24,361 nucleotides of DNA. Origin: a virus. The stretch spans positions 1-24,361 of IMG/VR virus record IMGVR_UViG_3300030382_001886; one strand, written 5' to 3'. The position numbers and the translations under genes are program-made. Under the pieces are notes generated by a model that saw nothing but the letters and a program-made list of their open reading frames with translations, had not been told where the DNA came from and ran no database searches. Below, piece after piece: positions 2,413-20,737 of this stretch; position 1 is the first letter of the stretch, and each line of letters opens with the position of its first letter.

Positions 2413-3831
2413 ATGGACACACCTATTAGGGATAAGTTATTAGCTCAGATGTCGTTAAAGCCTACTGGGGCGCAGTTAAAGATATTAGATGATGTTGCTC
2501 GTTACAAGTTAGTGGCAGGAGGAGTAAGGGGAGGTAAGAGTAGGTTAGCTGGTGCTTATTTGGTTCTTAAGATTTTAGAGAGTATAGCTGATAAGACTGC
2601 AAAGCCAGGTGATATATATTGGTTGGTGGCTGCAGATTATGAGCGTACTAGGGCTGAATTTAATTATATTGGTAGTGATTTAGCTAGTTTAGGTTTATTA
2701 GGGGAGATGACTAAGCCTATTAATCCTGGTGTAATAAGGTTAAATGTATGTGTATGTGGTGAGGGTAGGTGTTCACATGAGAAGATTGCTATAAAGACTA
2801 AGTCGGCTAGTGATTTTAAGAGTTTAGCGATGGAGGCTCCTAGGGGTATAGTGGCGTGTGAGGCATCTCAGTTGGATTTAGAGAGTTTTTGGAGGTTGGA
2901 GGAGAGGTTAGTGGAGGCTAGGGGTTGGTTGATGTTAGAGGGAACTTTTGAGAGTAGTTTAGGTTGGTATCCAGAGAAATATATACATTGGTCCTCTCCT
3001 GCTGTCCAGAATGCAGAGAACGTTAAGAGCTTTTCACTCCCAACATGGACAAATACGGAACTATTCCCTGGTGGCAGGGAGGATCCAGAGATAATTAAGT
3101 TAGAGAATACGCATAGTGAGTCTTGGTTTATGGAGAGGTTTGCTGGTGTGCCTAGTCCACCGAAGGGAAGGGTGCATGAGATGTTTAGGAATGAGGTTCA
3201 TATTCAGGATATTGATTTTGTGGAGGGTGTTCCTGTATATGTTTGGGTAGATCCTGGTTATTCGAGGGCTACGGAGAGTGCGTATGCTGTTGAGTTTGCA
3301 CAGATTATAGATGGGCAGATAAGAGTATTTGATGAAATTTACGAGCAGGAGAAGATTGGAGCTGAGATTGTTCAGATAGCTATGACTAGAGGTTGGTGGA
3401 ATAAATGTGATAAGTTTGGAGCGATTGATCAGGCTGGATCTCAGCATCAGGCCATGCACAGTCAGGTTGAAGTATGGCAACAGGAGTCAGGTTTGTATCT
3501 ACACCCAACTTATGTAAGAATTATAGAAGGCGTTGAAAGATTTAATACCTTTTTAAAAATTGATCCGATTATGAAAGAACCTAAAATTATTTTTTCACCA
3601 GATTGTAAAGGCGTGATAAGTGAGTTAGGTGGAGGACCGAATCCATTTAACGGACAGACAAAAGTTTACTCCTGGGCAACAGATAGAGAAGGGAATGTAC
3701 TAGGCACAACGCCAAGAGATAGGTATAATCACGCTGTAAAGGCAATAACATACGGATTAATACATGAATTTGGACACGCAAGGGAAGCAAGTTCGTATAG
3801 TCCTAGAGAACCATCAATATCATACTGGTAA
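2413..3831 (+). CDS. terL: Terminase large subunit (packaging ATPase/nuclease)
   Basis: The motor protein that cuts concatemeric DNA and pumps it through the portal. The 472 residues match the usual length. Walker A is G36-G-V-R-G-G-K-S43. The Walker B region is GIVACEASQLD, with E150 the probable catalytic glutamate, although the usual preceding Asp is Cys. The RNase-H-like nuclease domain has D280 (in VDPGY), D339 (in AIDQAG) and D436 (in DRYNHA). No Shine-Dalgarno precedes the ATG; an in-frame stop at 2362-2364 excludes a much longer form. Codon use changes abruptly near codon 356: Lys goes from 18 AAG:2 AAA to 1:5, and Glu from 29 GAG:4 GAA to 1:7 (counted by hand). This suggests a mosaic gene. 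The portal gene follows after 3 bases. Confidence 0.95.
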   Translation: MDTPIRDKLLAQMSLKPTGAQLKILDDVARYKLVAGGVRGGKSRLAGAYLVLKILESIADKTAKPGDIYWLVAADYERTRAEFNYIGSDLASLGLLGEMTKPINPGVIRLNVCVCGEGRCSHEKIAIKTKSASDFKSLAMEAPRGIVACEASQLDLESFWRLEERLVEARGWLMLEGTFESSLGWYPEKYIHWSSPAVQNAENVKSFSLPTWTNTELFPGGREDPEIIKLENTHSESWFMERFAGVPSPPKGRVHEMFRNEVHIQDIDFVEGVPVYVWVDPGYSRATESAYAVEFAQIIDGQIRVFDEIYEQEKIGAEIVQIAMTRGWWNKCDKFGAIDQAGSQHQAMHSQVEVWQQESGLYLHPTYVRIIEGVERFNTFLKIDPIMKEPKIIFSPDCKGVISELGGGPNPFNGQTKVYSWATDREGNVLGTTPRDRYNHAVKAITYGLIHEFGHAREASSYSPREPSISYW

Positions 3832-3834
3832 ATT

Positions 3835-5703
3835 ATGACAACAGAAAAAAGACTTACAGCTAAACAAATTGAACAACTCGTAACTGAAGAAAAAGAAAAA
3901 CCTCAGTATCTTAAATTAAGAGAAAGGTGGGAACTAGACTACAGTTATTACACTCTTGAAGAATATGATGCTGGAGAAGGATATCAAAGTTACACAAGTA
4001 ATAAACCTAGAACAACTGCTGATAAAATAATCAGCTATCTTACTGAAGCAGCGATGACTGTACGGACTAGATATGATAAGAATGATCCAGAAAGCGCAGA
4101 GTCTGGAACAACCTTAGAAAAATTCATTCGTGGATGTATCCGTATGGGGGATGACAGATTAGCCTCTACGTTATCCCCAACGCTGCAAGACCAATTAGCA
4201 TGGTATATTGCTATTCGAGGATGGTATTGTGGCAGAGCTATGTTCAATAAACAGGATAACGGCTCAATTAAATGCGAAATAGAACCTTTTGATCCTCTAA
4301 ATGCAACATGGAAGTTTGATAATAACGGACTTAAATGGATTGCAAAATCACATTCAAGAACCCCAGAATTTATTCAGGATACTTACGGAGTAAATATGGA
4401 ATTTTCTTCAGGTGACCACGAATCTGGCGTAGATGTACACGAATATATAGATAGATTTACGAGAAGCGTAGTCGCAAATGGAAGATATCTTGTAAAACCA
4501 CAGAAACATGAAAATAAAAACTTAAACGGAGATCCTATTGTGCCTGCATTTATCGGATATGTAGGTCCACAACCATTTGTTCAGGGAAATTACTCTGGAG
4601 ATAACGTATGGGGAGATGTAGGAGAAAGTGTTTTTGCACATATTAGGAGTTTGATCGATACGCAAAATAAATCAATGTCTGATTGGCAAACTTTAGTTAG
4701 ACGAGCTGTAAAACACCCAATGATTTTAAGAAGTAGAGATGGAAACCTTAGACTTATGGATGATCCTTACAGGGAAGGCGCAAATATATCATTAAAAGAA
4801 GGTGAAAACTTAGAATTAGCACCTGAAATGAAACTTGTAGCTGATGCTGGAGCATACATAGGTACTGTTAACAGCGAATTACAACAGGGAACTGTTCCTG
4901 ATATCGTATTTGGAGATATTCAATTCCAATTATCTGGTCATGCAGCAAATATTTTAAGAGCAGGAGCGCAACATCAGGTATCTCACAGAATGAAAGCACT
5001 AGGAAATGCAATGACACAGATTGCAAGTATTTTAAGATATCAATATCAAGGTGGTAGATTTGGAAAATTACAGTTTGATGGATTGATGGGAGAAACACAA
5101 ACGTATTTTGATGAAGAAATAGATCCTAAAGATTTAGAAAAAGCAGGAAACCTAGAAGTTATGTTTAAAAATTCACTAGGAATGGAAGATCCACAAAGAT
5201 TCTCAACTGCACAAATGCTTAGAGAAGGACCTGTTCCACTAGCTCCTGATACATATATTTGGAATGAAATACTAGATGTAGAAGATCCTGATAAATGGAA
5301 GAAGGAAATTTTTGCACAACAAGGCTCCAGGTCTGAGCCTAAATCTATCGCTTACAATATGTGGGAAGGCCTGCTTGAAAACCAAAGACCAGTTGAAGCA
5401 CAATTTTATTTAGATCAGCTAAAAAGACAATATACTAATGAACAACGTGAAGAATATATACAAAAACTACAGTTTCAACAGGCAATAATGCAACTTCAAC
5501 AACAACAAATGATGGCAGCACAAGGTCAACCACAACAAGGTCAACCACAACAAGGTGCGCCACCACAAAACCCAAACCCTAGCATGAGAAATAACAACGG
5601 AGTTGTAAGTGGAGCAGAAAGTGGGTATGATTTATTTAGGAGATCGCCTCCTCCAAACAACACGAGAGCGCCTGGAGAGCCAAGACCAGGAGCAAGGGGA
5701 TAA
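3835..5703 (+). CDS. Portal protein
   Basis: Forms the dodecameric ring at the capsid vertex through which DNA enters and leaves. Evidence is a 622-aa length typical of portals, position directly after terL, and a portal-like N-terminal region (residues 22-65: a Y-L-K-L-R-x-R-W block, then LEEYDAGEGYQSYTSNKPRT and ADKI). Further on, a helical core contains SLIDTQNKSMSDWQ (the stem/wing region). The C-terminus (about residues 540-622) is Gln-, Pro- and Arg-rich low complexity with a tandem GQPQQ, likely disordered inside the head. No ribosome-binding site is obvious in the 3-base gap, so translation is probably coupled to terL. The gene uses A-ending codons throughout, unlike the front of terL. 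Confidence 0.85.
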   Translation: MTTEKRLTAKQIEQLVTEEKEKPQYLKLRERWELDYSYYTLEEYDAGEGYQSYTSNKPRTTADKIISYLTEAAMTVRTRYDKNDPESAESGTTLEKFIRGCIRMGDDRLASTLSPTLQDQLAWYIAIRGWYCGRAMFNKQDNGSIKCEIEPFDPLNATWKFDNNGLKWIAKSHSRTPEFIQDTYGVNMEFSSGDHESGVDVHEYIDRFTRSVVANGRYLVKPQKHENKNLNGDPIVPAFIGYVGPQPFVQGNYSGDNVWGDVGESVFAHIRSLIDTQNKSMSDWQTLVRRAVKHPMILRSRDGNLRLMDDPYREGANISLKEGENLELAPEMKLVADAGAYIGTVNSELQQGTVPDIVFGDIQFQLSGHAANILRAGAQHQVSHRMKALGNAMTQIASILRYQYQGGRFGKLQFDGLMGETQTYFDEEIDPKDLEKAGNLEVMFKNSLGMEDPQRFSTAQMLREGPVPLAPDTYIWNEILDVEDPDKWKKEIFAQQGSRSEPKSIAYNMWEGLLENQRPVEAQFYLDQLKRQYTNEQREEYIQKLQFQQAIMQLQQQQMMAAQGQPQQGQPQQGAPPQNPNPSMRNNNGVVSGAESGYDLFRRSPPPNNTRAPGEPRPGARG

Positions 5704-5705
5704 AT

Positions 5706-6791
5706 ATGCCTTTATATAAAATACAACTAGGAAAAGGAAAAGCACAAACAGTTGATGCTGCAAATAGAGTTGAAGCTATTAGAATAGCAGATAGATTAGC
5801 AGCACAGGAAGAAACGTATGTTGCATCTGTCGAATCAACAGGTGAACAAGGCGAAGTCGCTGCTACACCTTTTGTAGCAGATGAAGATTCATTTAGACCA
5901 ACACCAGTTATGCCATACAGCGAAGGTTTACCTTTTAGGTCTACTGTATTAGACGAAGAAGGAAATTTAAGAAAAGAGTTTGAAGAACGTATGGGAGGAG
6001 AAGGATTGAGAGCAGGTGAACAAATATCACAATCTCCTTTTTTAGACACAACAGCTTCTTTTACTCCAACAGCAGGATTAATTCCAGGGGCAACAGGCCC
6101 AGCAGGTGGATCAGAGTTAACGAAAGAGCAAATAGCTTTACAAAGGCTAGGAATGGATGAAGCCCCACCAGGAGCGCTTCCCACAGGATCAATAGAACCA
6201 TTAGGCACTGTACCTTTAGGTGAACTTGATCCTTATGCGTTATTTGTAAAAGCTTTAGGAATGGAAGATAGACCAATAACAGATCCTTACAGAAGGTACA
6301 TGGGATCGCAATATATGGGATTTCTTAATCCTTTTAGGTTTCAAGCTCTTTTAGGTAATAGGGTAGGCGCAGGAGGACTGTTTAATGAAGGATCACAGGC
6401 ACCAGGATTTGCAGATTATTTATCTGTTGTACAAAATCCTATGCAGGCTAGACAAAACGCAGCAGATTTATTTGCAAGATCTGTGCAAGGTGGATTTGGA
6501 GCTGGAACTGCAGCGCAAGAGCTTCTTGGAAATTTAATAGGTAGTCAAGGACAATTTAGTCCATTCGGAGCATTAGAAGATAATCAACGAAATGTACTTA
6601 ATGCTTTTGGAAGTTTAGGTCAACAAGCGTTACAAAATAGAATAGGAAGTGCAGCAATGAATTTATTTGGGAGATCATTGCCTAGTGCAGAGGATGTTTA
6701 TACAGATTACTTTACAAGATCGCAAGCAGGTCAAGATGTAGCACCAACATTTGGACAAGCGCTACAAAGGGCTTATGGTCTAGGAGTTTAA
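5706..6791 (+). CDS. 361-aa unknown protein, possible internal/ejected virion protein
   Basis: The N-terminus (residues 1-45) looks like a small folded domain (Y-K-I-Q-L-G-K-G-K, then a basic/acidic helix). It is followed by a Pro/Gly/Thr-rich disordered stretch to about residue 165. The C-terminal half (about 190-361) is helical, Gln/Ala-rich and contains DPYRRYMGSQYMGFLNPF and NLFGRSLPSAEDVY. No named family is recognised. A ribosome-binding sequence AGGGGA overlaps the end of the portal gene. It sits between the portal and the giant protein, a position where short-tailed phages encode internal core or ejection proteins; this role is inferred from context only. Confidence 0.8.
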   Translation: MPLYKIQLGKGKAQTVDAANRVEAIRIADRLAAQEETYVASVESTGEQGEVAATPFVADEDSFRPTPVMPYSEGLPFRSTVLDEEGNLRKEFEERMGGEGLRAGEQISQSPFLDTTASFTPTAGLIPGATGPAGGSELTKEQIALQRLGMDEAPPGALPTGSIEPLGTVPLGELDPYALFVKALGMEDRPITDPYRRYMGSQYMGFLNPFRFQALLGNRVGAGGLFNEGSQAPGFADYLSVVQNPMQARQNAADLFARSVQGGFGAGTAAQELLGNLIGSQGQFSPFGALEDNQRNVLNAFGSLGQQALQNRIGSAAMNLFGRSLPSAEDVYTDYFTRSQAGQDVAPTFGQALQRAYGLGV

Positions 6792-6794
6792 TTT

Positions 6795-7154
6795 ATGGCT
6801 ATGCCAAGTTTTGCAGAAAACTATCCTAATCAGTTTTTAGAACCTAGGTTTCAAAATCCTTTTTTAGATTATCTTGAAGCAACTCCAGAAGGACAATTTG
6901 GAATATTTCAATCTATAGCTCAACCTTTTGCTACTGAAAAACGTAAAAGAGAAACAATATCCAACGTATTTCAACAGGCAAGAAACGAATTTTTAGGAGA
7001 ACTTGCAAGCGCTGCAAGGCAAGGTGAAACACCATCTCTTACTTTTTCAGAATTTTTAGAAAAATTTCCAGTATCACAAAGAATAGAACAACAAGCAGGA
7101 TCGCCTTACACAAGATCATTAGCTCCTCCAACAAGATTTTTATACGGATTTTAG
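6795..7154 (+). CDS. 119-aa unknown protein between portal and giant protein
   Basis: Begins MAMPSFAENYPNQFLEP and ends in an aromatic tail RFLYGF. The middle is helical, with charged segments (EKRKRETISNVFQQARNEF, about residues 49-67). It starts 3 bases after the stop of the 361-aa gene with GGAG as ribosome-binding sequence. Its stop codon is embedded in the AGGAGG site of the next gene. Its phenylalanine-rich 'NPF' segments recall the C-terminal half of the 361-aa protein, so both may belong to the same internal complex, but I recognise no family. Function is unknown. Confidence 0.75.
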   Translation: MAMPSFAENYPNQFLEPRFQNPFLDYLEATPEGQFGIFQSIAQPFATEKRKRETISNVFQQARNEFLGELASAARQGETPSLTFSEFLEKFPVSQRIEQQAGSPYTRSLAPPTRFLYGF

Positions 7155-7163
7155 GAGGCTCTT

Positions 7164-10100
7164 ATGGTAATGCGTAAGTTATACCAATTAGATAAAGGCA
7201 TTGATGCAAGTATAAAAAAATTTGCAAATGAAATGTACCCAGGATCGCCTTACAGCTTCCTTACCAATTTCCTTACTGGAGAAGGGTTTCAAAGTTACCA
7301 ACAAGAAAAAAGAAAAAAGGAGAGCAGAGAACAAAAAGTTCCTCAATCAGGAGGACCACAACCTTATTATTACGGAACACCAACACCAAGAGGTACTCCT
7401 TTACCTGGATCTGCTCCTCCTGAAGAAGGAATATGGAGAAAATGGTTATTTGACGAAGCGTTACCAGGAATAGGAAAAAATTTATTAAAAGTAGGTACTG
7501 CTGTCACAAGTCCAGATATATATAATTTACAATTATCAAAATCTGATCCCCTTGCTAAAGGAAAGCCTTTTAAAGAAATGGTACAACCTGCTGCTACACA
7601 AAAAACAAGAGATGACTTGTGGAATCAGGAATTACAAAATATTGCTAGAGGTCAACGAACAGTCCTTCCAGAAAGTTCGTATGAATGGCAGCTACCCTGG
7701 ATGGAAGATAAAGGAATTGAAAGTTCAGTAGGAAAAGCATTATTTGATACTGCAACTGGAGTTACACCATTTGATGTAGCATTACCAGCAGGTTTTGCAT
7801 CTAAAGTATTCCCTTGGGCAGTTAAAGGTTTAGCAGCAAAGTCAGCCTCGGCAACTAACTGGGGTAAAAAAATATTTTACGGAGCTCTACCAGCTATAGT
7901 AGAACCTCTATCCAGAAGTACAAGTTTTGCAGATAGATTCGCAGCAGAACTAGCTTTCGATCAAGCTATTAAGGCATCTACTGAGGCAGGTGGAATAGGG
8001 TTTGGATTAACAGCTCCTACAGTTTCTAATATGATTCTTCGTTCAGGAGGCAGGGCAATCACTAATATTGGAAAGAAAGGGTTGCATAATATTCCTACAC
8101 TTGATGATTATTTAAAAAACCCAGAGGCAGTCAATCAAATTAGACCAACAAGAATAATCCCTGGTCGAAATGTTCCAACAATAGCAGGTGGAGCAACAAA
8201 CCCAAAACCAACAGAATTTTATGGTAGAGATACAAGCGCACCAACTTCAGGCACCTCTAACGATCCAAGATTTTTAACAAATGGGGAGTTCCAAAGATTA
8301 AACTTTAAAATTAAATTAATGGATGCAAACGATATAACTACATCTAATGATCCGTACAGTCCAACATTTGCAAAAGATCCAAAATATCCAACAGTAAAAC
8401 AGCCAAGAGATAGGTTTGGAGATCCTTTAACATCAGCAGAAGAAAAGAAAAGTTTAATTGATATGGCTAAAAATTTAAGAGTTGATGAACTTATTGACGA
8501 TACATCAAGAATGGATAGTGGTTTGCCTATTATTGGTCAAGGTCACGTTGAAAGTGGAAATAAACGTATGATGGCAATAAAACTGGCTAGAAAAGATTAC
8601 CCTGAAGTTTACAAAGAATATATAAAAGTATTAAGGAATAGGCTTGAAGAATATGGAATACCTAGAACAGAATTAGATCAATTTGATTTAACAGAGCAAA
8701 TGCCTGTGTTGGTAAGGGAAAGACAGACAATATTACCAGATGATGCTCATTTGCCTATAGCAGAAAGAACAGTAAGGAAATATGTTATAGATGCAAATAA
8801 ATCAGGATTAGAAGAATTTTCTGTATTTGAAGAAGCAGGACAGTTAGCTGAAGCATGGAGTGACGATCTTCTAACTAGGATAATTCCAGTAGGAAAAAAT
8901 ATAAGAACAACTTTACAAGCAAGCTCTAACGCAGAAGTTGTAAATGCTTTTAGAAGTTTTGTTAAAGGAAACCCTAATGTAAAAAATTGGTTTAGAGGTG
9001 GTAAGTTAACAGAATTAGGAACTGACAAACTTACGCAAGGCTTAAGAGTAAAAATATTTGGACAAGACAATGCAGAATATTTAATTCAAAATATTGATGT
9101 AGTTCCTGACAATCAAACTAGATTATTGTTTAATGCTATAGATGAAGCTTTAGCACCATTAGCAGTAATTAAAGGTAAAACTAATAAATTTACTGAAGCA
9201 ACTGATTACGATATATCAAACGAAATTATTTCAGCTATAAAAAGATTTAGGACTATAAAAGATGAAACTGCACGACACAATGCAAGTTTAATAAAAGGTC
9301 AAACATCAAAAAGCCTTAAAACAGCAGTTGATGAATACTTGCAGCAAGGTCAAATGTTTGCTGAGTTTAAATCTGATGAAATTGAAACATTACTTTTAAC
9401 TTTATTTAATGGTATAGGAAGAAAATCAGCAACATCAAAACAACTATCAAGCGTGTTTAGCAAGTACGAACAACTTGTTGAACAAAACCTTGGCCAAGCA
9501 TCTATGATGCCAGTAACTAAATTACAGATTCTTGAACAAGCAATAAGAAGTGCTGCTCCAGAAGGAACAGAGCTTGTTACAGATAATGTAGGTAGAGTGG
9601 TTACAGCATTAGATGAGGAAGTTAAAGGGATAGATCCGAAAGTAGAAACTAAAAGCGTAGATGATACTACTTTTGATAAAGATGCAGACAACCCATTACC
9701 TAAAAAGAAGCACGAAGAAATTAAAAAACAAATTAAAGAAGATGGTGGATATGAAGAAGGAGAAGATCTTGCGTTTGGTAATGATGGAACAGAATCTGAC
9801 ATGAACCCACCTGGAGATAGAACTCCTGTAACCAAACAAAACCCTGAGATGCCTCTTATAAGATCGACAGGTACCCAAACTCGTTTTTCTAGTGGAGATG
9901 ATGCTATAAAAATGACAACAAGAGGTAGGGCAAGACACAACGAAAGGCCACTAGAACAAGTAGTACAAAAAGAACCTATTGTTATAGATCCTGATATAAA
10001 TAATGCTGATGATGCACCTAAAGTTGTTCCATCTCCTATGTTTAAGCAACTTTTAGGTGATGGCACAATAAACATTGGGTATAATGCAAAACAAAAAATT

Positions 10101-13100
10101 GTTAATAATCTATATTCATTTGTGCGCTCACTCAGAATAAAACCTGAACTTTTAAATATAAAGCATAAAGAAGGAAATCTTATAGAGGGAATGATTGATT
10201 TTTGGGAAAGCAAAACAAGGATTGCTGAAACACAAGCTACTAGAATCGGAGAAGTTGTAGAAGCCAGATTAAATGCTGTATTTAAGGTTAATAAAAATGG
10301 AACTGTAGACAACGTGCATCTTATTGAAAAATCTTTAACTGACAACAAAGGCAATATTGTTTTAAAAAATGGAAAAGAAATTATTAAAAAATTCAAACCT
10401 ACTCTTACTGACATAGCGGCAAGGTGGCCTGAGTATGTAGGAGAATTGTCTGAAAAACAGGTCAAGGCAATGGAATCAGTTCAAGATGAAGTTTTACCTG
10501 TTAGTCAGTTATGGAGTGAACTAGAAGAAGTTGCTGAAAAATATGGTATATCCAATTACAAGGATGCAATAACTATAAGAGCTGACATTATGGAGGGAGG
10601 ATTTTATTTACCAAGAGGTGGTGAAATAGGTGATGGAACTCTTGATATAGGCAGAGTAATAAAGAAAAGATCTAAGCCTTGGAATAAAACTGCTAAGTTT
10701 GATAGTCAGGGAGAAGGCATAGATAACGGAATTGAATACGATTCTCTTAAAGATTCTATTCAAAAATTAACTAGAAGTGTTTTAAATCAACACATTAATA
10801 TTGTGCTTTCAACAGCATCTAAAAATTTTAGGGATGCAAGTGGAGAACCTGTATGGAGAACATTAAATGATCTTGTTGAAATGGAAAACCCTGGATTAAA
10901 AGTAAAGTTAGATGGCATTAAAAAAGAATGGAGCAGGCTTACAGGGTTAAGAAATATGCTTGAAGTAAGAACACAAGATGTTGGTGATACACTATTAGAT
11001 GAACATAGTGGAAATTTAGATAGAATTTTTGAAATACTTACCAAAAAATTATATGTGGTTAAAGCTGGACCAAATAAAAATTACACAAAAAAACAAATAG
11101 AAAATGCTTTAAGTGATTTATTAAAACAATTAAGTCCAGTCAGGCAAGAATTTAATTCAGCATTAAAAAGACTTGATAAGCAAGGTTACGAAGGTTATAG
11201 AAAATTAAGTGATTTAGGATTCAAAGAATTATCTAATATGTATTTAGATGAAACAGCTGCTAAATCTTTTCTTAATTTTTTTGATGATCTTAGTTCTACT
11301 CAAAAAAATGGTGTTTTACAATTTATGCAAACATTTAATGCTGCTTATTTGATGACCAAATCAACTGTTGACTTTTCTGGTCCTGGTATTCAGGGAAGCG
11401 TTGGTATGTGGACAAATCCTAAAGTTTGGGGAAAGGCAACTTTAGCAAACTTTAAAGCGTTTGTAGATCCAAAAACATTAGGTAAAAGACTTGTTGAATT
11501 TGATAACCAAGCTGCAAAAACAGGCAGACCAACTGTAAGAGAAGCTGTAATTGAAGGATTAGTAATAAATCGAAACATTTCTGAAATTCAAATGGGTGTC
11601 GGTAATTCAATTAGAATGAAAAAAGTATTAGATAAATTAGGAGGCATGACTCCACTTTCTTTTAACAGAGCTTTTACAGATTTTGGAAATGTATACAGGT
11701 TAGGAGAATTTGATAGTTTGGTTGAAGAAGCTGTAGCTAGAGGCAGAACAATAGAAGATATGCGTGCAGACGGAACTTTAAAAACTTTTGCTGAAATAGC
11801 AAATAAACTTAGTGGAACAATGAATTTAAGCAGAAGGTATAGGAATTTTACAGATATAGCAGCAGCAACTTTATTTGCACAAAGATACTATATGGTCAGA
11901 GCTAGAAATATGTATAAAGCTATAAAAGGAACAGCAAATCCTTTTACAAAAGACTTAGAATCAAAAATTATGGCTAGAAGATATCAAAAATTCTTCGCTT
12001 ACACAACAACAGTTACTTATCTTATTAATTCAGCACAGGGGGAGGAAACAGATTTTTCACCTATAGTTAGAGATCCAGTAACAAAAAAGTGGAGAAAAAA
12101 TGGTAACTTTATGGCACTTCACATACCTTTTTCTGATAAACAATGGTCTTTAATGGGTTCTGTAATAAATATACCTGGTCACATATTTAGCTTTGTGGCT
12201 GGCACAGCTAATGCAATACAAAATAAAAGCCCTAAGAGAGCTTTAGACCAATTGATGGGTACAGGAAGAAGTGTAGGTTCAGGTATGATTAAATTAATGA
12301 ATGAAGAATGGAATGGAACGCCTATATGGGATAAAAGAGATTGGACAGAAGGTAGAAGCGAACAAGTTTTAGTTGATATACTTATGTATTTAGGGGATGC
12401 GTTTTCTCCATTTTCATTTGAGGCTATTGCAGAAGTAACGGAAGATGGAGTTAAAAATGCTAAAGAATTTCTTGAATCAGAAAAGAAAGTTATGGATTTG
12501 GGAGTGTTAGTTAGAGATTATGGAGTTGACACAGCAGAAGCAGTAGCTGAATTTGGTGGACAGGTTACTTCAGATCAAAGTTATACAGATATATTAATAC
12601 AAGAAACCAGAAAAAGAGGCATAGACTTTACAAGGCTAGAACCACATCAGAAAAAAGATTTTAAAGAAATTGTTCAAGAAAAATATGCTAAAGAAAAACG
12701 AGGATTAGTTAGAGCAGTAGGACAATTATTTGGTAGGTCAACTGAAGCATTAGGCACTCCACATCAAAGATTACAAGAGCAAAGAATATTTAAACAGCGA
12801 GAATACCTTGAACGACTAAAGCGTGGCTATGGAAAAGGTGGCATAAATGATACTTATGGACCAAAACAATTTGCTAGAGATGTAAGAAATGCAGATGCTG
12901 ATTACTACACTAAGCGCCAAGGTCAAATTGAAAAAGACGGAGATCCTTATGTAGACGAACATTCTTACGAAGAATCTAGCGAAAACATAATTGCATCAGA
13001 ACAATACTACGATATGATGGAAGTTTATTATGATAAAGAACTTGAAGAAACCGATCCTGCAAGATTTGAATTGCAAGACAAATTATTTTTAGGGCAAGAA

Positions 13101-13580
13101 GTTGAATTAAAAGATGGAAGCGTTATTGGTAATTGGACACCTGAACAGATTGAATATGTATCAAGAAACATAAATGACCTTTATTACGAACCTGAAGTTT
13201 TAGAAAAAATGATGCAATATGGTCAAATGGGAGTTTACCCACTTAAATATTGGCATAAAGACAGAAAAAAATCTGAAGATGCACGAAAAAGATTTAAAAA
13301 CGCAGGTAGCCCTGGAAGTGCATTAGATCCAAACGCAGTATTTTTGTGGGATTCAAGAACATTTAACTTACGAGTGCAGGTTCCAGAAAAAGTCCAAGAA
13401 AAAGTCCAAGCCTACTTACCATTTATTAATTATCTAAATGAAAATGCAGAAATCCCACCTACTCCAACACCTAGACTTACTCCAGTTCCTGTAGGTGCAG
13501 ATGCTCCATCAACAGATGCTATTATGCCTTGGCCTACGCCTTCAGCTATAGGTACAAAGCCTGGATGGAGTCCACGATAA
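7164..13580 (+). CDS. Giant polyvalent-type protein with ParB/DdrB-like domain; probable ejected virion protein
   Basis: At 2138 residues this fills about a quarter of the window. Visible parts in order: a basic start and Pro/Gly-rich linker (about 55-95); a hydrophobic Ala/Gly-rich region (195-300); a DdrB-like ParB-superfamily domain (about 412-570) with GQGHVESGNKR at 458-468, then P-V-L-V-R and DANKSGLEEF; a charged linker (810-945); a long helical region; a block at about 1395-1760 with the 'STVDFSGPGIQGSV' and 'RYYMVRARNMYKA' segments and mildly hydrophobic stretches near 1610 and 1663-1680; charged helices; and a Pro-rich tail. The ParB domain plus the C-terminal block match the 'polyvalent protein' architecture (Iyer, Burroughs and Aravind), thought to be delivered with phage DNA. 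A perfect AGGAGG precedes the ATG by 5 bases. No protease, lysozyme or methylase motif was recognised. Confidence 0.8.
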   Translation: MVMRKLYQLDKGIDASIKKFANEMYPGSPYSFLTNFLTGEGFQSYQQEKRKKESREQKVPQSGGPQPYYYGTPTPRGTPLPGSAPPEEGIWRKWLFDEALPGIGKNLLKVGTAVTSPDIYNLQLSKSDPLAKGKPFKEMVQPAATQKTRDDLWNQELQNIARGQRTVLPESSYEWQLPWMEDKGIESSVGKALFDTATGVTPFDVALPAGFASKVFPWAVKGLAAKSASATNWGKKIFYGALPAIVEPLSRSTSFADRFAAELAFDQAIKASTEAGGIGFGLTAPTVSNMILRSGGRAITNIGKKGLHNIPTLDDYLKNPEAVNQIRPTRIIPGRNVPTIAGGATNPKPTEFYGRDTSAPTSGTSNDPRFLTNGEFQRLNFKIKLMDANDITTSNDPYSPTFAKDPKYPTVKQPRDRFGDPLTSAEEKKSLIDMAKNLRVDELIDDTSRMDSGLPIIGQGHVESGNKRMMAIKLARKDYPEVYKEYIKVLRNRLEEYGIPRTELDQFDLTEQMPVLVRERQTILPDDAHLPIAERTVRKYVIDANKSGLEEFSVFEEAGQLAEAWSDDLLTRIIPVGKNIRTTLQASSNAEVVNAFRSFVKGNPNVKNWFRGGKLTELGTDKLTQGLRVKIFGQDNAEYLIQNIDVVPDNQTRLLFNAIDEALAPLAVIKGKTNKFTEATDYDISNEIISAIKRFRTIKDETARHNASLIKGQTSKSLKTAVDEYLQQGQMFAEFKSDEIETLLLTLFNGIGRKSATSKQLSSVFSKYEQLVEQNLGQASMMPVTKLQILEQAIRSAAPEGTELVTDNVGRVVTALDEEVKGIDPKVETKSVDDTTFDKDADNPLPKKKHEEIKKQIKEDGGYEEGEDLAFGNDGTESDMNPPGDRTPVTKQNPEMPLIRSTGTQTRFSSGDDAIKMTTRGRARHNERPLEQVVQKEPIVIDPDINNADDAPKVVPSPMFKQLLGDGTINIGYNAKQKIVNNLYSFVRSLRIKPELLNIKHKEGNLIEGMIDFWESKTRIAETQATRIGEVVEARLNAVFKVNKNGTVDNVHLIEKSLTDNKGNIVLKNGKEIIKKFKPTLTDIAARWPEYVGELSEKQVKAMESVQDEVLPVSQLWSELEEVAEKYGISNYKDAITIRADIMEGGFYLPRGGEIGDGTLDIGRVIKKRSKPWNKTAKFDSQGEGIDNGIEYDSLKDSIQKLTRSVLNQHINIVLSTASKNFRDASGEPVWRTLNDLVEMENPGLKVKLDGIKKEWSRLTGLRNMLEVRTQDVGDTLLDEHSGNLDRIFEILTKKLYVVKAGPNKNYTKKQIENALSDLLKQLSPVRQEFNSALKRLDKQGYEGYRKLSDLGFKELSNMYLDETAAKSFLNFFDDLSSTQKNGVLQFMQTFNAAYLMTKSTVDFSGPGIQGSVGMWTNPKVWGKATLANFKAFVDPKTLGKRLVEFDNQAAKTGRPTVREAVIEGLVINRNISEIQMGVGNSIRMKKVLDKLGGMTPLSFNRAFTDFGNVYRLGEFDSLVEEAVARGRTIEDMRADGTLKTFAEIANKLSGTMNLSRRYRNFTDIAAATLFAQRYYMVRARNMYKAIKGTANPFTKDLESKIMARRYQKFFAYTTTVTYLINSAQGEETDFSPIVRDPVTKKWRKNGNFMALHIPFSDKQWSLMGSVINIPGHIFSFVAGTANAIQNKSPKRALDQLMGTGRSVGSGMIKLMNEEWNGTPIWDKRDWTEGRSEQVLVDILMYLGDAFSPFSFEAIAEVTEDGVKNAKEFLESEKKVMDLGVLVRDYGVDTAEAVAEFGGQVTSDQSYTDILIQETRKRGIDFTRLEPHQKKDFKEIVQEKYAKEKRGLVRAVGQLFGRSTEALGTPHQRLQEQRIFKQREYLERLKRGYGKGGINDTYGPKQFARDVRNADADYYTKRQGQIEKDGDPYVDEHSYEESSENIIASEQYYDMMEVYYDKELEETDPARFELQDKLFLGQEVELKDGSVIGNWTPEQIEYVSRNINDLYYEPEVLEKMMQYGQMGVYPLKYWHKDRKKSEDARKRFKNAGSPGSALDPNAVFLWDSRTFNLRVQVPEKVQEKVQAYLPFINYLNENAEIPPTPTPRLTPVPVGADAPSTDAIMPWPTPSAIGTKPGWSPR

Positions 13581-13673: not shown

Positions 13674-14549
13674 ATGACAACTGAAAGAACTTCTTCAGAC
13701 GCTGTCACTCAGGAGCCTCAACAACAGGAACCAGATCTTCTTACCGATAACACTACAGAAGAACAATTACAAACTGAAGTAGATCAAGGATTATCGGAAG
13801 GAGCTAAAGAGAATGTTGAATCTGGGGAGCCTGAATCAAGCGATCAGGGAGCAGAAACTACAGAGGTTAGCAATAACGACTCTACACAACCACCACAACA
13901 AGAAGAAAATCGTGCTTATTCTCATGAAGAAGTATCGAAAATTCAAAGTAGTTACGATAAACGTGCAGCTGAGAATGACAAACAAGTTTCTCAGCTACAA
14001 GAGCAAGTTAATCAATTACAGCAACAGTCAACTACCCAGAATCAACAGTATTCAGAGCAACAAATAGTTGGTGCTAGGGATTCTTTCATTAGAGATAAAA
14101 CTCAATGGTTGGTTCAACAGGGAGTAGATGAATCACAAGCTACTATGCAAGCAAGACAGGAAGGTGAAGCTGCTGCTCAAACTGCCATGGCTCAAATGAA
14201 ATTGGACCAAGAAAAGCAGTCAATAGAGCAACAGAAACAAGAACTGGATCGTCAAGCAAAGGTAACTGTTACAAATCAAATAGCTAGTAGGTACAATGTA
14301 TCAGCTGGCGACCTTGAAGGATTTACTACACCTCAACAAATGGAAAAGTATGCTGCTGCTGTAAGCCAAACTAATAAGGTTGTTAGAGAAACGACTCCAC
14401 AACTTAACACTTCAGGCGATGTTCCTCCTGATAACATTCCAAGCAATGATGACGACATTCTTGACAGATTTGCTTCTGGTGATCCAAAAATCACTATGGA
14501 TATGTATGAAGGCGCCATGAAAAGAATGAATCCAAATTGGAACGGATAA
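13674..14549 (+). CDS. Probable scaffold (capsid assembly) protein
   Basis: The 291-aa product is acidic and Gln/Glu-rich. It has a disordered N-terminal third, a long coiled coil (about residues 85-200, with repeated 'QLQEQVNQLQQQ'-type heptads), and a short C-terminal helix with aromatic and basic residues (M-Y-E-G-A-M-K-R-M-N-P-N-W). An acidic, coiled-coil protein immediately before the major capsid gene is the classical arrangement of a scaffolding protein, which shapes the procapsid and leaves during packaging; the basic C-terminal helix is typically what binds the coat protein. The start is set by AGGAGA 3 bases before the ATG. No protease domain is seen. Confidence 0.8.
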   Translation: MTTERTSSDAVTQEPQQQEPDLLTDNTTEEQLQTEVDQGLSEGAKENVESGEPESSDQGAETTEVSNNDSTQPPQQEENRAYSHEEVSKIQSSYDKRAAENDKQVSQLQEQVNQLQQQSTTQNQQYSEQQIVGARDSFIRDKTQWLVQQGVDESQATMQARQEGEAAAQTAMAQMKLDQEKQSIEQQKQELDRQAKVTVTNQIASRYNVSAGDLEGFTTPQQMEKYAAAVSQTNKVVRETTPQLNTSGDVPPDNIPSNDDDILDRFASGDPKITMDMYEGAMKRMNPNWNG

Positions 14550-14576: not shown

Positions 14577-15449
14577 ATGGCAACAAGCGTACAAACTGCC
14601 TCAACTGGTAATTTAAGTTCGGTACAAAGAACTATAATTGCTCAAATGAGGTACACAGAAGAACACAATATGCCTGTTGTTGGTTTAATAGAAAAGTTTA
14701 CTTTAGGTAAAGGTGAGAAACAAATTGACATTCCAAAAGCTGCGCAGGCAACTGCATCAGATTTGGTTGATGGTCAAGATATGACAGATTCTGAAGAAAT
14801 TAGTGCTTCAATAGTATCTGCAACTACCTCTGAAGTTGGACTTAAATTTATAATAACCGACAAATTGGCAAGACAATTTAACCAAGACGTAATGCAAGTA
14901 ATCGGCAGACAAGGTGGAGATGCTATGGCAAGGAAAAAAGACACCGATGCTATCGCTCTTTTTGCTAGTTTTAGTACACAACTTGGAGCCGATGGTGCAA
15001 ACTTTAGTTTGGCTAATGCTACTTCAGCTATAGCAAGAGGAAAAGGTGACAAATTTGGAACTAATCCATTTATCGTTCATCATCCAAACGCTATATTTAA
15101 GTTAACACAAAGCTTAACTACACCTTTGGCTACTTACCCACTACCAGACGTATTCAACAAACCACCAGTAAAAGATTTCTTTACAGGAATTAGAATTGGT
15201 GGAGTACCATTCTTTGAAGATGGAAACATCCAAAAAGTATCTGGCGTTGATTCTGGTTATGGCGTATTAGCTACTTCAGGAGCTATGGGTCACGTCACAT
15301 CTGCTGCTCGAAACGTAGAGCGACAGAGAGATGCTTCTCTTAGAGCTACTGAAATGGTTATAACAGAGGACTATGGAATGTTTGAACTAGACGACTCTAG
15401 GGGAGCTAGATTACAATATGAAATAGGAAACCACTCAACGAGTGCATAA
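14577..15449 (+). CDS. Major capsid protein, HK97 fold
   Basis: The 290-aa product forms the icosahedral shell. It starts with a short flexible arm, then a segment on a conserved pattern 'MPVVGLIEKFTLGKGEKQID'. After that come a region resembling the E-loop and spine helix (residues about 84-130, including LKFIITDKLARQF), 'NPFIVHHPNAIFKL' (about 163-176), 'GVPFFEDGN' and a C-terminal beta-rich end, consistent with short HK97-fold coat proteins of podo- and siphoviruses. Its position after the scaffold gene and the strong AAGGA ribosome-binding sequence support this. There is no delta-domain and no protease, so maturation probably depends on the separate scaffold. Confidence is from fold-like pattern and context, not a database match. 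Confidence 0.85.
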   Translation: MATSVQTASTGNLSSVQRTIIAQMRYTEEHNMPVVGLIEKFTLGKGEKQIDIPKAAQATASDLVDGQDMTDSEEISASIVSATTSEVGLKFIITDKLARQFNQDVMQVIGRQGGDAMARKKDTDAIALFASFSTQLGADGANFSLANATSAIARGKGDKFGTNPFIVHHPNAIFKLTQSLTTPLATYPLPDVFNKPPVKDFFTGIRIGGVPFFEDGNIQKVSGVDSGYGVLATSGAMGHVTSAARNVERQRDASLRATEMVITEDYGMFELDDSRGARLQYEIGNHSTSA

Positions 15450-15909: not shown

Positions 15910-16680
15910 ATGGCTTATCCAGTTACTGTTCAAGGCTCACCTGGCTTTGAAAAATCAACAACTACTTCTGCTAAACACAGAGTAGGACAAAAAATGGAAC
16001 TACCAGATGGTAGAGTATTTTTTTATGGCTATACAGGGGAAGCAATTACTGCTGGTAAACTTTGTATGACTACTGCCACTTCTAGTGGACACATTAAGGA
16101 CTTAGCAGTTGCAGCAGCAGCAGCAGCAGATGCTACTCAAATTAAAGTAACCAATGCTACTACAGCTATAACAGGTAGTGGCGCATATACTGGTGATTTT
16201 GCTACAAGAGGCGATTATCAAGATGGTTATGTATTCGTCAACGATGCAGCAGGTGAAGGGCAAGTTTGGCAAATAAAGGATCACAGTACTGCCGCTTCTA
16301 GTGGAACTATAACTATAGATTTTTACGACAATGATGTTGTAGCTACTGCACTAACAACTTCAAGTGAAGTTGGTCTAGCAAAAAATCCATATAATTCCGT
16401 AGAAGTATGGGATTTAAGTGATATTGATGGACCATGTATTGGAGTTCCAAATAGAGATATTGCATCTGGAAGTTATGGTTGGTTCCAAACTAAAGGATAT
16501 GCAGCAGTTTTGACTAATGGTACATTTGTAGTTGGTAAAAACGTGATGACAGGATCAACAACTGATGGTTCTGGTGATGTTATGGCAGACGATTCTAGCG
16601 CAGAGTTTTTAATTGGTGGCGTTGTTAACGTAGGAGCAACTACTGAATATTCTTTAGTAGACTTAAATATTAGAGGATAG
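15910..16680 (+). CDS. Probable capsid decoration/stabilisation protein (DUF2190-like)
   Basis: The 256-aa product is mainly beta. The order 'LPDGRVFFYGYTGEAITAGKL' (with GRVFFYG about residues 34-40), an Ala-rich stretch, 'DFATRGDYQDGYVFVNDAAG', then 'GPCIG' (174-178), 'GSYGWFQTKG' and a C-terminal 'TEYSLVDL' matches a family I recognise from many phages. It is normally encoded close to the capsid gene and related to DUF2190/capsid-decoration beta-barrels. Such proteins bind the outer capsid surface. The AGGAGG ribosome-binding site suggests high expression, consistent with a protein needed in many copies. Codons 16111-16128 form a (GCA)6 run coding poly-Ala. Confidence 0.7.
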   Translation: MAYPVTVQGSPGFEKSTTTSAKHRVGQKMELPDGRVFFYGYTGEAITAGKLCMTTATSSGHIKDLAVAAAAAADATQIKVTNATTAITGSGAYTGDFATRGDYQDGYVFVNDAAGEGQVWQIKDHSTAASSGTITIDFYDNDVVATALTTSSEVGLAKNPYNSVEVWDLSDIDGPCIGVPNRDIASGSYGWFQTKGYAAVLTNGTFVVGKNVMTGSTTDGSGDVMADDSSAEFLIGGVVNVGATTEYSLVDLNIRG

Positions 16681-18417: not shown

Positions 18418-20306
18418 TGGTTTCTTCAGTAGGAAGCGTAATAGACAAAAACGAAATTTTGTTAAATGGATATAGGTTTCCAATTAAAGGACCTCCTAGA
18501 AGGGTACTTACTTCATTGTTTGCACCTAAAATAAGTATAGGTGAATCAGATCAAACTGCTGCTCAACATATTTCAACTTTGTCATTTAGTGATTTTAGAG
18601 GTGGAATAGGAATAGAAAGAGGTGTTGATTCTTCAACTATTGATAGGGCTTGGTTTGCAACTACACAATTAAGGTTTAAAGAACATTTAGTTCTTCCTCC
18701 ATTAACAACTGCAACGGCTGCATCAGGTGAATCAGGTTCAGTTCAGGCTATTCATGATTTAAGCAATGAAATTTACGCAGCTTTTGGAACAAAAATATTA
18801 AAATATTCAAATACAGATACCTGGGGAAGTTCTTTACACACATTACAAGGTGATGCAACTGATGTAATTAAAGTTAGGATAAGCAATACAACTTATCTTG
18901 TTTGGGCATCCAATGCTGCAGGATATACTTATACTTCAGATGGCAGTAGCTATACAAATAAAGCAGATTCAGTATTTAAACCTAAATATTTTGCATATTG
19001 GAATAATTTATTGTGGGGAATAACCGAAGATGGATTATTAGGATATTCTTCAAACTTAACTTCCTGGACCAATGATGCGCAATTACAATTACCTGACGAT
19101 CATGTTACAGCTTTATTCGTAGGCAGGGATTCAAGTGCTAACCCTGTATTGTATGCAAATACAAAGGTTGGATTATTTGTTCATGATAATACAAATACTA
19201 AATGGCTTGAAACTGAAATAGGATTACCATTTAACGAATTTGCAGGACTTAGCTCTCTTAAATGGAGAGATTCTGTATATTTTCCAGTTGGACTAGCTGT
19301 TTACAAGTATAAAGTTGGAGAAACAAGTACGTTACAGGTTGTCGGACCAGACAGAGATCATGGATTACCTTCTGCATATAGAGGAACAATAAGACAACTT
19401 GTTGGCACACATAATGATTTAATTGCACTTGTTGACGGAACAACAGGAAATGAAGGTGATATATGGGCTACAGGCTCATCTCAAACTGGACACAGAAGTC
19501 AAGTTATTGAGGCATCAGGCCTAAGTTCTTTACTTGGATACAATGAATTAGGTTGGGAAGTAAAGTGGGCAGGAACTACATCTCAACAAGCTGCTACTGC
19601 TGCTCATGTTAGTTCAGCATACGATGAATATAGATTATGGTTTGCTGCAACAGATACTATTTATTTTACTGCTTTAAGCGAAGATGTGATTAACCCAGAC
19701 CAAATTACCGATTTTAAATTTGATACTGCTGGAGAACTTCAAACACCAGACTTTGATGCAAACGATATTACTTCAACAAAATTAGCTTTAAAATTAAAAG
19801 TTCAAACTTCTCATTGTTCAAGCACAGAAACTGTAGCTGTATCATACGCAACAAATGGAAGCACATCATTTACAAGCCTTGGTTCTATAACATCAGACGG
19901 AGTTACAGAATATAATTTTCCTAATTCTGCTGCTCCTTCAGGACTAGAGTTTAAATCAATTAGGTTTAAATTAACTTTAGCTAGGGGAACTACAAGCACA
20001 AAGGTATCTCCTGACATAAATAGGTTTGAATTACAGTTTAGGCGAAAGCTAGAAGCAAAATATGGCTGGCAAGTAACTATAGACTTAACTAGACCTAGAG
20101 GTAAAAAAGGATATAAAGGAAAAACTCCTAGTGAATTAGACGATCTTTTAAGAACAATAGTAGATTCAGATACTTTGCTTTCTTATACATTTAAACATAA
20201 TGACACTAATTATACTCATTATGTAGACGTAGCTCAGTTGTCTGGCTTTGAAATGACAGGACTTGACGATAGATTTGAAAGAACATTAACACTATTGGAG
20301 CCATAA
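18417..20306 (+). CDS. Beta-propeller-like tail (tubular/nozzle or hub) protein
   Basis: The ATG shares base A with the previous stop (TAATGG), implying coupled translation. The 629-aa product has a short N-terminal segment with GGIGIERG (about residues 62-69) and W-F-A-T-T. Then come five or more blade-like repeats of 50-60 residues in which beta strands end in aromatic-plus-Gly patterns (for example IYAAFGTKILKYS, YLVWASNAAGYTY, LLWGITEDGLLGYSS and LYANTKVGLFVHD). The C-terminal 150 residues include a beta-sandwich and a basic segment with RPRGKKGYKGK. Propeller proteins with this location are typical of short-tailed phage nozzle proteins. Alternative: a siphovirus tail hub; no tape-measure gene is visible to support that. 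Confidence 0.6.
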   Translation: MVSSVGSVIDKNEILLNGYRFPIKGPPRRVLTSLFAPKISIGESDQTAAQHISTLSFSDFRGGIGIERGVDSSTIDRAWFATTQLRFKEHLVLPPLTTATAASGESGSVQAIHDLSNEIYAAFGTKILKYSNTDTWGSSLHTLQGDATDVIKVRISNTTYLVWASNAAGYTYTSDGSSYTNKADSVFKPKYFAYWNNLLWGITEDGLLGYSSNLTSWTNDAQLQLPDDHVTALFVGRDSSANPVLYANTKVGLFVHDNTNTKWLETEIGLPFNEFAGLSSLKWRDSVYFPVGLAVYKYKVGETSTLQVVGPDRDHGLPSAYRGTIRQLVGTHNDLIALVDGTTGNEGDIWATGSSQTGHRSQVIEASGLSSLLGYNELGWEVKWAGTTSQQAATAAHVSSAYDEYRLWFAATDTIYFTALSEDVINPDQITDFKFDTAGELQTPDFDANDITSTKLALKLKVQTSHCSSTETVAVSYATNGSTSFTSLGSITSDGVTEYNFPNSAAPSGLEFKSIRFKLTLARGTTSTKVSPDINRFELQFRRKLEAKYGWQVTIDLTRPRGKKGYKGKTPSELDDLLRTIVDSDTLLSYTFKHNDTNYTHYVDVAQLSGFEMTGLDDRFERTLTLLEP

Positions 20307-20737
20307 TGGTTACACCTGGATTTACTACTACTGCTAAAGGTCAACGAAGAAGTATTCCAGAAAAACCTGCTGATTTTTCAGGTAGTATGCCAGAGTATGT
20401 TGTTTATAACCAATTATTGCGCTTTGGATTAAAACCAAACCAAGATTTTCAATTTCAAGCAAGATTTGGTGGAGGTAAGATTGAACGTGGAGGAATGGTT
20501 ATTGATTTTCTTTTTTCTAATCCTCCAGGCTTAGCTATAAATGTACAAGGAGTTTATTATCACTATGAACAAGGTAGTGCAAACATAGCAAATGACTTGC
20601 TTGCTAGAGAGATACTTGCAGGGCAGGGCATATCTCTTATATTCTTAGATGATGACGATATAATGGCAAATCCTACATTTTATGTAAGAGAGGCATTGAA
20701 TTTTAAAGATTACTCTAAATATAGTTTAGGAAGATAA
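20306..20737 (+). CDS. Vsr/PD-(D/E)XK-like nuclease-fold protein in the tail module
   Basis: The 143-aa protein has a compact order of motifs: E30 in a helix (MPEYVVYNQLLRFG), D67 at the end of a strand (GGMVIDFLF), then AINVQGVYYHY with N79, V80, Q81, G82 and H86, followed by helices and a final LIFLDDDDI strand. In Vsr endonucleases the aligned region is E, D, then T-H-G-C-F-W-H; G82 and H86 align with G and H, while the T/H pair is V80/Q81 here. In DUF559-type members the same place is E-x-D-G-x-x-H. The fold is therefore likely restriction-endonuclease-like, but the changed residues make activity uncertain. It overlaps the propeller gene by one base. Confidence 0.6.
   Translation: MVTPGFTTTAKGQRRSIPEKPADFSGSMPEYVVYNQLLRFGLKPNQDFQFQARFGGGKIERGGMVIDFLFSNPPGLAINVQGVYYHYEQGSANIANDLLAREILAGQGISLIFLDDDDIMANPTFYVREALNFKDYSKYSLGR

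Follow-up and report, generated by a model that had tools for sequence, protein, structure and literature searches.

The DdrB protein of Escherichia phage P1 is part of the Dar system, whose proteins, ejected along with the DNA, shield it against type I restriction (PMC12810830). DdrB itself is a head protein (39 peptides) and is listed as aiding the addition of DarB to the capsid (PMC9024508). For DdrB-ParB domains, Iyer et al. (2017) proposed roles as nucleoside triphosphate (NTP)-regulated deoxyribonucleases (DNases) or in NTP sensing, and other domains of the ParB superfamily reportedly act as nucleases and NTPases (PMC5512222). In ParB folds, GxxR is the phosphate-contacting Box II pattern, and its arginine is required for nucleotide binding (PMC12704722). 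A 2025 survey of nucleotide-binding ParB folds, which was based on PF02195, mentions neither DdrB nor polyvalent proteins; the DdrB-ParB domains had been named in 2017. Here we describe P0001, a giant protein of 2138 amino acids encoded in a stretch of viral DNA of 24,361 nucleotides (the window; positions 1 to 24,361 of IMG/VR record IMGVR_UViG_3300030382_001886). P0001 carries a DdrB-like ParB domain ahead of a C-terminal core that is conserved across a family of uncultivated viruses. The protein class is already known, and as a type the giant is unremarkable; what is new and informative about it is the exchange of its payload.

A DdrB-like ParB domain in P0001

The open reading frame (ORF) of P0001 (7164-13580, plus strand) begins with an ATG, 9 bases after the gene for a 119-residue protein, and is open and complete; it is kept as a coding unit in relatives (homologues in L002, L098/L100, L103/L104 and L105). 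Its only confident Pfam domain is ddrB-ParB (PF18763), at residues 377-520, with a score of 58 bits (E = 1.3e-15) against a curated cut-off of 27.6 bits, and the same domain scores above the cut-off in the giants of L098, L104 and L105. In a tblastn search of 50,697 phage records, matches were obtained in 30, all within residues ~377-781, and these included P1 DdrB and P1-like phages (E values of 5e-4 to 2e-10) as well as internal-virion-type proteins of epsilon15-like podophages. Many P1-like plasmids matched as well. All of the positions that are invariant in an alignment of 26 members are retained in P0001 (Q413, R415, R417, G453, V462, G465, N466, R468, Y486, G498, P514, R518 and N545). 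The signature residues of the DdrB family are likewise present, namely QxRxR, VESGNxR, a Tyr in the extra helix, PVLVR and an Asn, with QPRDR at residue 413, PVLVRER at 514 and DANKS at 543. The domain sequence is too distant to be matched by PF02195.

The AlphaFold2 (AF2) model of the DdrB-like region, built from 22 sequences, had a predicted local distance difference test (pLDDT) score of 82. Foldseek alone found nothing in the PDB at E <= 0.001 with this model, and ParB structures rose to the top only after re-alignment with VIA, in which the first six structures were ParB N-domains with Z scores of 6.2-7.1 (next row, 4.5); in five of the six, 89-102 residues were aligned at 2.5-3.2 Å. Searches of PDB sequences with profiles of the DdrB region, the core and the portal candidate yielded nothing convincing. 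We consider the ParB/DdrB part of the giant to be real, with a predicted ParB/Srx fold that is assigned on sequence first and on structure second, and the conserved pocket residues suggest that this module may bind nucleotide.

A first-pass annotation of the window had described a 2138-residue polyvalent-type protein with a ParB/DdrB-like domain. The frame and the motifs that it quoted are present, and the PF18763 score, the tblastn similarity to P1 DdrB and the family-wide conservation of the core indicate that they are not due to chance; the domain call itself agrees with the profile match, the resemblance to P1 DdrB, the invariant residues and the ParB fold match, and the class appears to be that of a phage-type polyvalent-like giant protein. 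The bounds given for the domain, residues 412-570, lie in the right region, with a start that is slightly late (the fold begins at ~377) and an end that is much too early (DdrB-like sequence runs to ~781).

Exchange of the module in front of the core

With a DdrB profile, detection of the domain was limited to the clade of the window (L096, L098/L100, L103-L106 and overlaps), and it was absent from more than 20 distinct giants of distant clades, with Pfam in agreement for ten. At residues ~377-704 of the giants in L180/L182 and L185, a C5-cytosine methylase was found (PF00145, E = 4e-22 and 4.5e-19). Inspection of these sequences revealed SPVCKxFS at the position of the catalytic cysteine, IENV and QHRPR, and the methylase looks intact in all three loci; L189, which is truncated at its 5' end, aligns through the methylase region and has similar motifs. 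The flanks of the L182 giant align with those of L148 (residues 1-331 and from 826) and L187 (1-336 and from 837), and the gap between the flanks amounts to ~495-500 amino acids in L182, compared with 75-111 in L148 and L187. As judged from these alignments, the giants of the distant clade have a modular slot, and the DdrB-like module of the window's clade occupies an equivalent position with respect to the middle and core that the clades share. The family amounts to a natural experiment, in which one core is preceded variously by DdrB-ParB, by a C5 methylase or by almost nothing, and it suggests that DdrB-ParB and the methylase answer the same problem, most simply the restriction of incoming DNA.

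The C-terminal core and its possible relation to LPD38

The core, at residues ~1330-1770, is common to the clades, with E values of 1e-12 to 1e-24 by blastp and of 1e-54 or better in profile searches, and the stretch starting near residue 990 matches the distant clade with a probability of 96.9% by hhalign. Residues 1-376 did not resemble the N-terminal backbone in the distant clade, and the last 370 residues had no match there. When the core was searched against cultured phages by tblastn, there was no match, and searches for its motifs in 80 loci that carry DdrB but lie outside the family gave nothing significant.

The model for LPD38 (PF18857, curated cut-off 27 bits), a large polyvalent protein associated domain (LPD), had no match at E <= 10 in P0001 or in the giants of L098, L104 and L105. 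When a profile of 12 core members was compared by hhalign with the module from LPD38-bearing giants, the score was 39.1 (P = 8e-4, probability 24%), compared with at most 22.9 in 100 column shuffles, at most 25.9 in 60 block shuffles and 13.8 for the reversed module; the alignment is collinear, and sets NEEWNGTPI against N..F.G.PI. A longer, gappier core alignment of 20 members scored only 24.7 (probability 0.5%), and a first hhalign comparison with the C termini of five sequences gave a probability of 0.1%; the link between the core and LPD38 depends on the alignment used. The giant of L133 (6557-12772), from the same virus family and gene position, has a true LPD38 (PF18857, 34 bits) without DdrB; its portal candidate is 36% identical, and its LPD38 module matches at 98.9%. 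DdrB-ParB is combined with LPD38 in the giants of L017, L033 and L048. These comparisons argue for a probable distant homology between the core and LPD38 rather than for membership, and a place for the core among the LPDs is no more than plausible. As far as found, the core of P0001 appears to belong to a separate family that PF18857 does not recognise and that is confined to this group of uncultivated viruses. Its ATGDxSAxGIQG motif offers a sequence family for spotting such carriers where the profile libraries now available find nothing in an uncultivated virus.

The LPD that had been proposed for the C terminus was correct as to a real and conserved block; the family assignment is weakly supported, with no match to the core from any model of Pfam, PHROG or NCBIfam and a weak profile-profile similarity to LPD38. 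The suggestion that the middle of the protein could hide a new effector was not supported for residues ~990-1330, which are family-wide backbone, and no new effector domain was found in the middle, while the linker is indeed devoid of a recognisable domain over residues ~786-990.

Divergence of the giant from its neighbors

Between the window and L114, the proteins encoded by terL (the terminase large subunit gene), the portal candidate, the 119-residue gene, the scaffold candidate, the capsid gene and a number of genes further on have 87-95% identity, with nonsynonymous divergence (dN) of 0.03-0.08 (92-94% and 0.04-0.06 for terL and the portal candidate). For the neighboring head genes the range of identity is 90-94%. 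Over the same comparison, the giant is 33% identical with a dN of 0.71, and its proportion of synonymous differences (pS) of 0.63 places synonymous sites near saturation. Synonymous divergence (dS) was near 0.4 for the scaffold candidate and capsid, and was also high for terL and the portal candidate. The pattern fits replacement of the giant, at least in part, by recombination from another lineage; fast divergence alone is a live alternative, given the raised dS of terL and the portal candidate as well. Genes for proteins of 361 (5706-6791), 256 (15910-16680) and 632 (20739-22637) amino acids diverge like the giant, with 35-46% identity to L114. The second of these closely follows the capsid region and may encode a decoration protein or a fibre.

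On a shorter scale, the near-identical L002 differs from the window at 66 positions (from 2500 on), 56 of which fall within 10000-12500, where the giant's middle and core are encoded. Fifteen of the 56 are accounted for by a single gap of 15 bases at residue 1710, which keeps the frame, and the DdrB part is nearly unchanged.

Genomic context and virus family

The giant lies in a late/virion neighborhood, with terL upstream and the capsid gene downstream (Table 1). The head operon of the first-pass annotation is confirmed by terL and the major capsid protein (PF25209). The portal and the scaffold are candidates by position, size and composition only; the portal candidate had no match in the family libraries. 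Scans with the whole of P0001 returned near-identical contigs only, and the portal candidate found relatives at 85-93%; a profile built on it extended the set to over 130 contigs, at values as low as 35%. These family contigs were drawn from IMG/VR and, to go by their sample numbers, are presumably of marine origin. Most members that are long enough share an arrangement in which terL is followed by the portal candidate, the variable gene, the 119-residue gene, the giant (1514-2217 amino acids) and the capsid. No host was found when bacterial and archaeal genomes were searched with the portal-candidate and core profiles.

Several other observations were made. In L105 (8230-14135), the giant is broken into two overlapping frames of 1081 and 915 amino acids, reflecting a frameshift, a programmed shift or a sequencing error. 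In L118 (12124-17406) and L123 (15018-20426), whose portal candidates are 56-58% identical, the first 1700 residues of the giants share nothing detectable with P0001; both giants run off the contig end, and the core is perhaps absent for that reason. Upstream of terL, the 7-base unit ACCCTGC is tandemly repeated in non-coding DNA at window positions ~2148-2205. A 143-residue gene (20306-20737) is 86-94% identical in relatives and has no family match; it gives the impression, and no more, of nuclease-like residues (IDFLF ... AINVQG ... D).

Table 1. Features of the giant gene, its operon and the methylase-bearing relatives (window coordinates unless a locus is given).
Feature	Position	Strand	Basis
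Terminase large subunit (terL)	2413..3831	+	phrog_2 E 4.8e-10; tblastn to terminases
Putative portal	3835..5703	+	Position and size; conserved in over 130 viral contigs
361-residue variable gene	5706..6791	+	32-46% identity where neighbors have 80-93%
119-residue conserved gene directly upstream of giant	6795..7154	+	
Giant protein P0001, 2138 amino acids	7164..13580	+	ORF and homologues (L002, L098/L100, L103/L104, L105)
Residues 1-376, N-terminal region, Gly/Pro/Ser/Thr/Asn-rich, clade-specific	7164..8291	+	
Residues 377-556, ddrB-like ParB domain	8292..8831	+	PF18763, model, ParB N-domain structural matches
Residues 462-468, VESGNKR, holds GxxR (G465, R468)	8547..8567	+	Near-invariant block, 26 sequences
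Residues 557-785, helical second half of DdrB-like region, common to P1 DdrB and others	8832..9518	+	
Residues 786-990, acidic linker, no recognised domain	9519..10133	+	
Residues 991-1330, middle of family-wide backbone	10134..11153	+	hhalign to distant clade, probability 96.9%
Residues 1331-1770, C-terminal core kept across virus family; distant collinear similarity to LPD38 module	11154..12473	+	
Residues 1402-1411, VDFSGPGIQG motif; family consensus ATGDxSAxGIQG	11367..11396	+	
Residues 1771-2138, C-terminal tail, conserved within clade only	12474..13580	+	
Putative scaffold	13674..14549	+	Position and composition
Major capsid protein	14577..15449	+	PF25209 E 4.3e-9
Methylase-bearing giants	L180:14864-21079, L182:4080-10700, L185:1688-8338		PF00145

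Proposed function and alternatives

We propose, with a probability of roughly 0.6, that P0001 is a carrier packaged in the virion and ejected from it, with an exchangeable module of the anti-restriction type that acts on DNA. Like the entry into the cell read by the first-pass annotation, packaging, ejection, nucleotide binding and DNA protection are all inferred. The giant would be made late, together with the head genes. Its middle and core (~990-1770) would most likely dock it inside the head or portal and carry it out with the DNA, and the DdrB-like module (residues 377-785, a predicted ParB-fold NTP-binding domain with a helical extension) would act on DNA once a new cell is infected, and would most likely shield the arriving genome from restriction or similar nucleases, like the P1 Dar proteins. 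A carrier with an early DNA-acting module is the best-supported reading because the pocket residues are conserved, the gene is located in the head operon, the core is family-wide and a methylase serves as the alternative payload. P0001 would then be a phage-type polyvalent protein in which DdrB-ParB is certain and a second conflict-type domain, the LPD38-like core, is weakly supported. In a more specific and rather speculative version, which we consider improbable, the slot in front of the one core takes either the DdrB ParB-fold module or the C5-cytosine methylase, and the ParB module is an NTP-gated clamp that loads onto the incoming genome and shields it; if true, a ParB-type switch would serve DNA protection rather than segregation.

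Several points weigh against the carrier proposal. The similarity between P0001 and its methylase-bearing relatives covers only residues ~990-1770 and not the N-terminal flank, which is too different for proof, so that for the window the same slot is a matter of position. P0001 contains no HExxH metallopeptidase motif, nor any Pfam metallopeptidase match, and the autoprocessing proposed for P1 DdrB is therefore unavailable to it. The AF2 model of residues 930-1800 has a pLDDT of 57 and is unusable for fold claims; its matches in BFVD (best E = 8e-3) include several proteins named 'large polyvalent protein associated domain', which is a hint only. Finally, since P1 DdrB is annotated as helping DarB onto the capsid, the domain could be an assembly factor rather than an effector.

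This last point leads to the alternative that survives best, in which P0001 has mainly a structural role, as an internal virion protein or an assembly protein, and its DdrB-like part recruits other internal proteins or aids head maturation, with no enzymatic effect in the host. The occurrence of DdrB in internal-virion-type operons of epsilon15-like podophages (gp16-like) and the retention of the core without DdrB in most of the family are consistent with this idea. However, the nucleotide-binding-type residues are strictly retained, a DNA methylase at a comparable place in relatives points to a DNA-acting payload, and divergence far above that of the portal candidate and capsid is unexpected for a purely structural part, and we regard this alternative as unlikely. 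Less likely again is a ParB domain that is injected to act as an NTP-regulated nuclease or NTPase on host DNA or rival elements, as in the proposal of Iyer et al. (2017), and not to protect phage DNA. The conserved active-site arginine and the activities of other ParB-superfamily domains (PMC5512222) would suit such a role, but the literature examined contained no DNase assay of any DdrB-ParB domain, and the sister viruses have as their alternative payload a methylase, an enzyme that usually protects. A tail tape-measure protein, suggested by the great length and partly helical character of P0001, was rejected as highly improbable on gene context (its neighbors are terL and the portal candidate on one side and the scaffold candidate and capsid on the other, rather than tail genes) and missing family matches (none to tape measures in Pfam or PHROGs for P0001), and fits poorly with a globular DdrB domain and a core of mixed helix and strand; the only related hint was a sub-threshold PhageMin_Tail in L105 (17 bits against a cut-off of 33), and no support was thus found for the fold that the first-pass annotation had set against its own reading.

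Comparison with known systems

P0001 shares with the ParB-CTPase fold (PDB 7bnk, 7bm8 and 6sdk) its predicted fold, with Z scores of up to 7.1, and the GxxR phosphate motif, whereas no helix-turn-helix or ParB dimerisation domain was recognised in it and no ParA partner was seen. The epsilon15 gp16-like proteins, as in Alcaligenes phage Piluca and Acinetobacter phage TPWB-05, also have DdrB-ParB in a virion operon, but they are ~950 amino acids long and carry DdrB in their C-terminal half, opposite to the arrangement in P0001, and they have no similarity to it outside DdrB. P1 DdrB resembles P0001 over a DdrB-ParB region of ~400 amino acids (25-26% identity), and is encoded with virion-head genes. 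It differs in its length of 995 amino acids, in its proposed C-terminal metallopeptidase (PMC5512222) and in its neighbors DarA, Hdf and DdrA, whereas P0001 has a C-terminal carrier part of 1350 amino acids without HExxH, and no DarA, Hdf or DdrA was recognised in the window. The polyvalent proteins that combine DdrB-ParB with LPD38 (PMC5512222; here L017, L033 and L048) are similar to P0001 in size, with 2200-2400 amino acids, and likewise have DdrB-ParB upstream of a conserved C-terminal module, and that module shows a weak, collinear profile match to the P0001 core.

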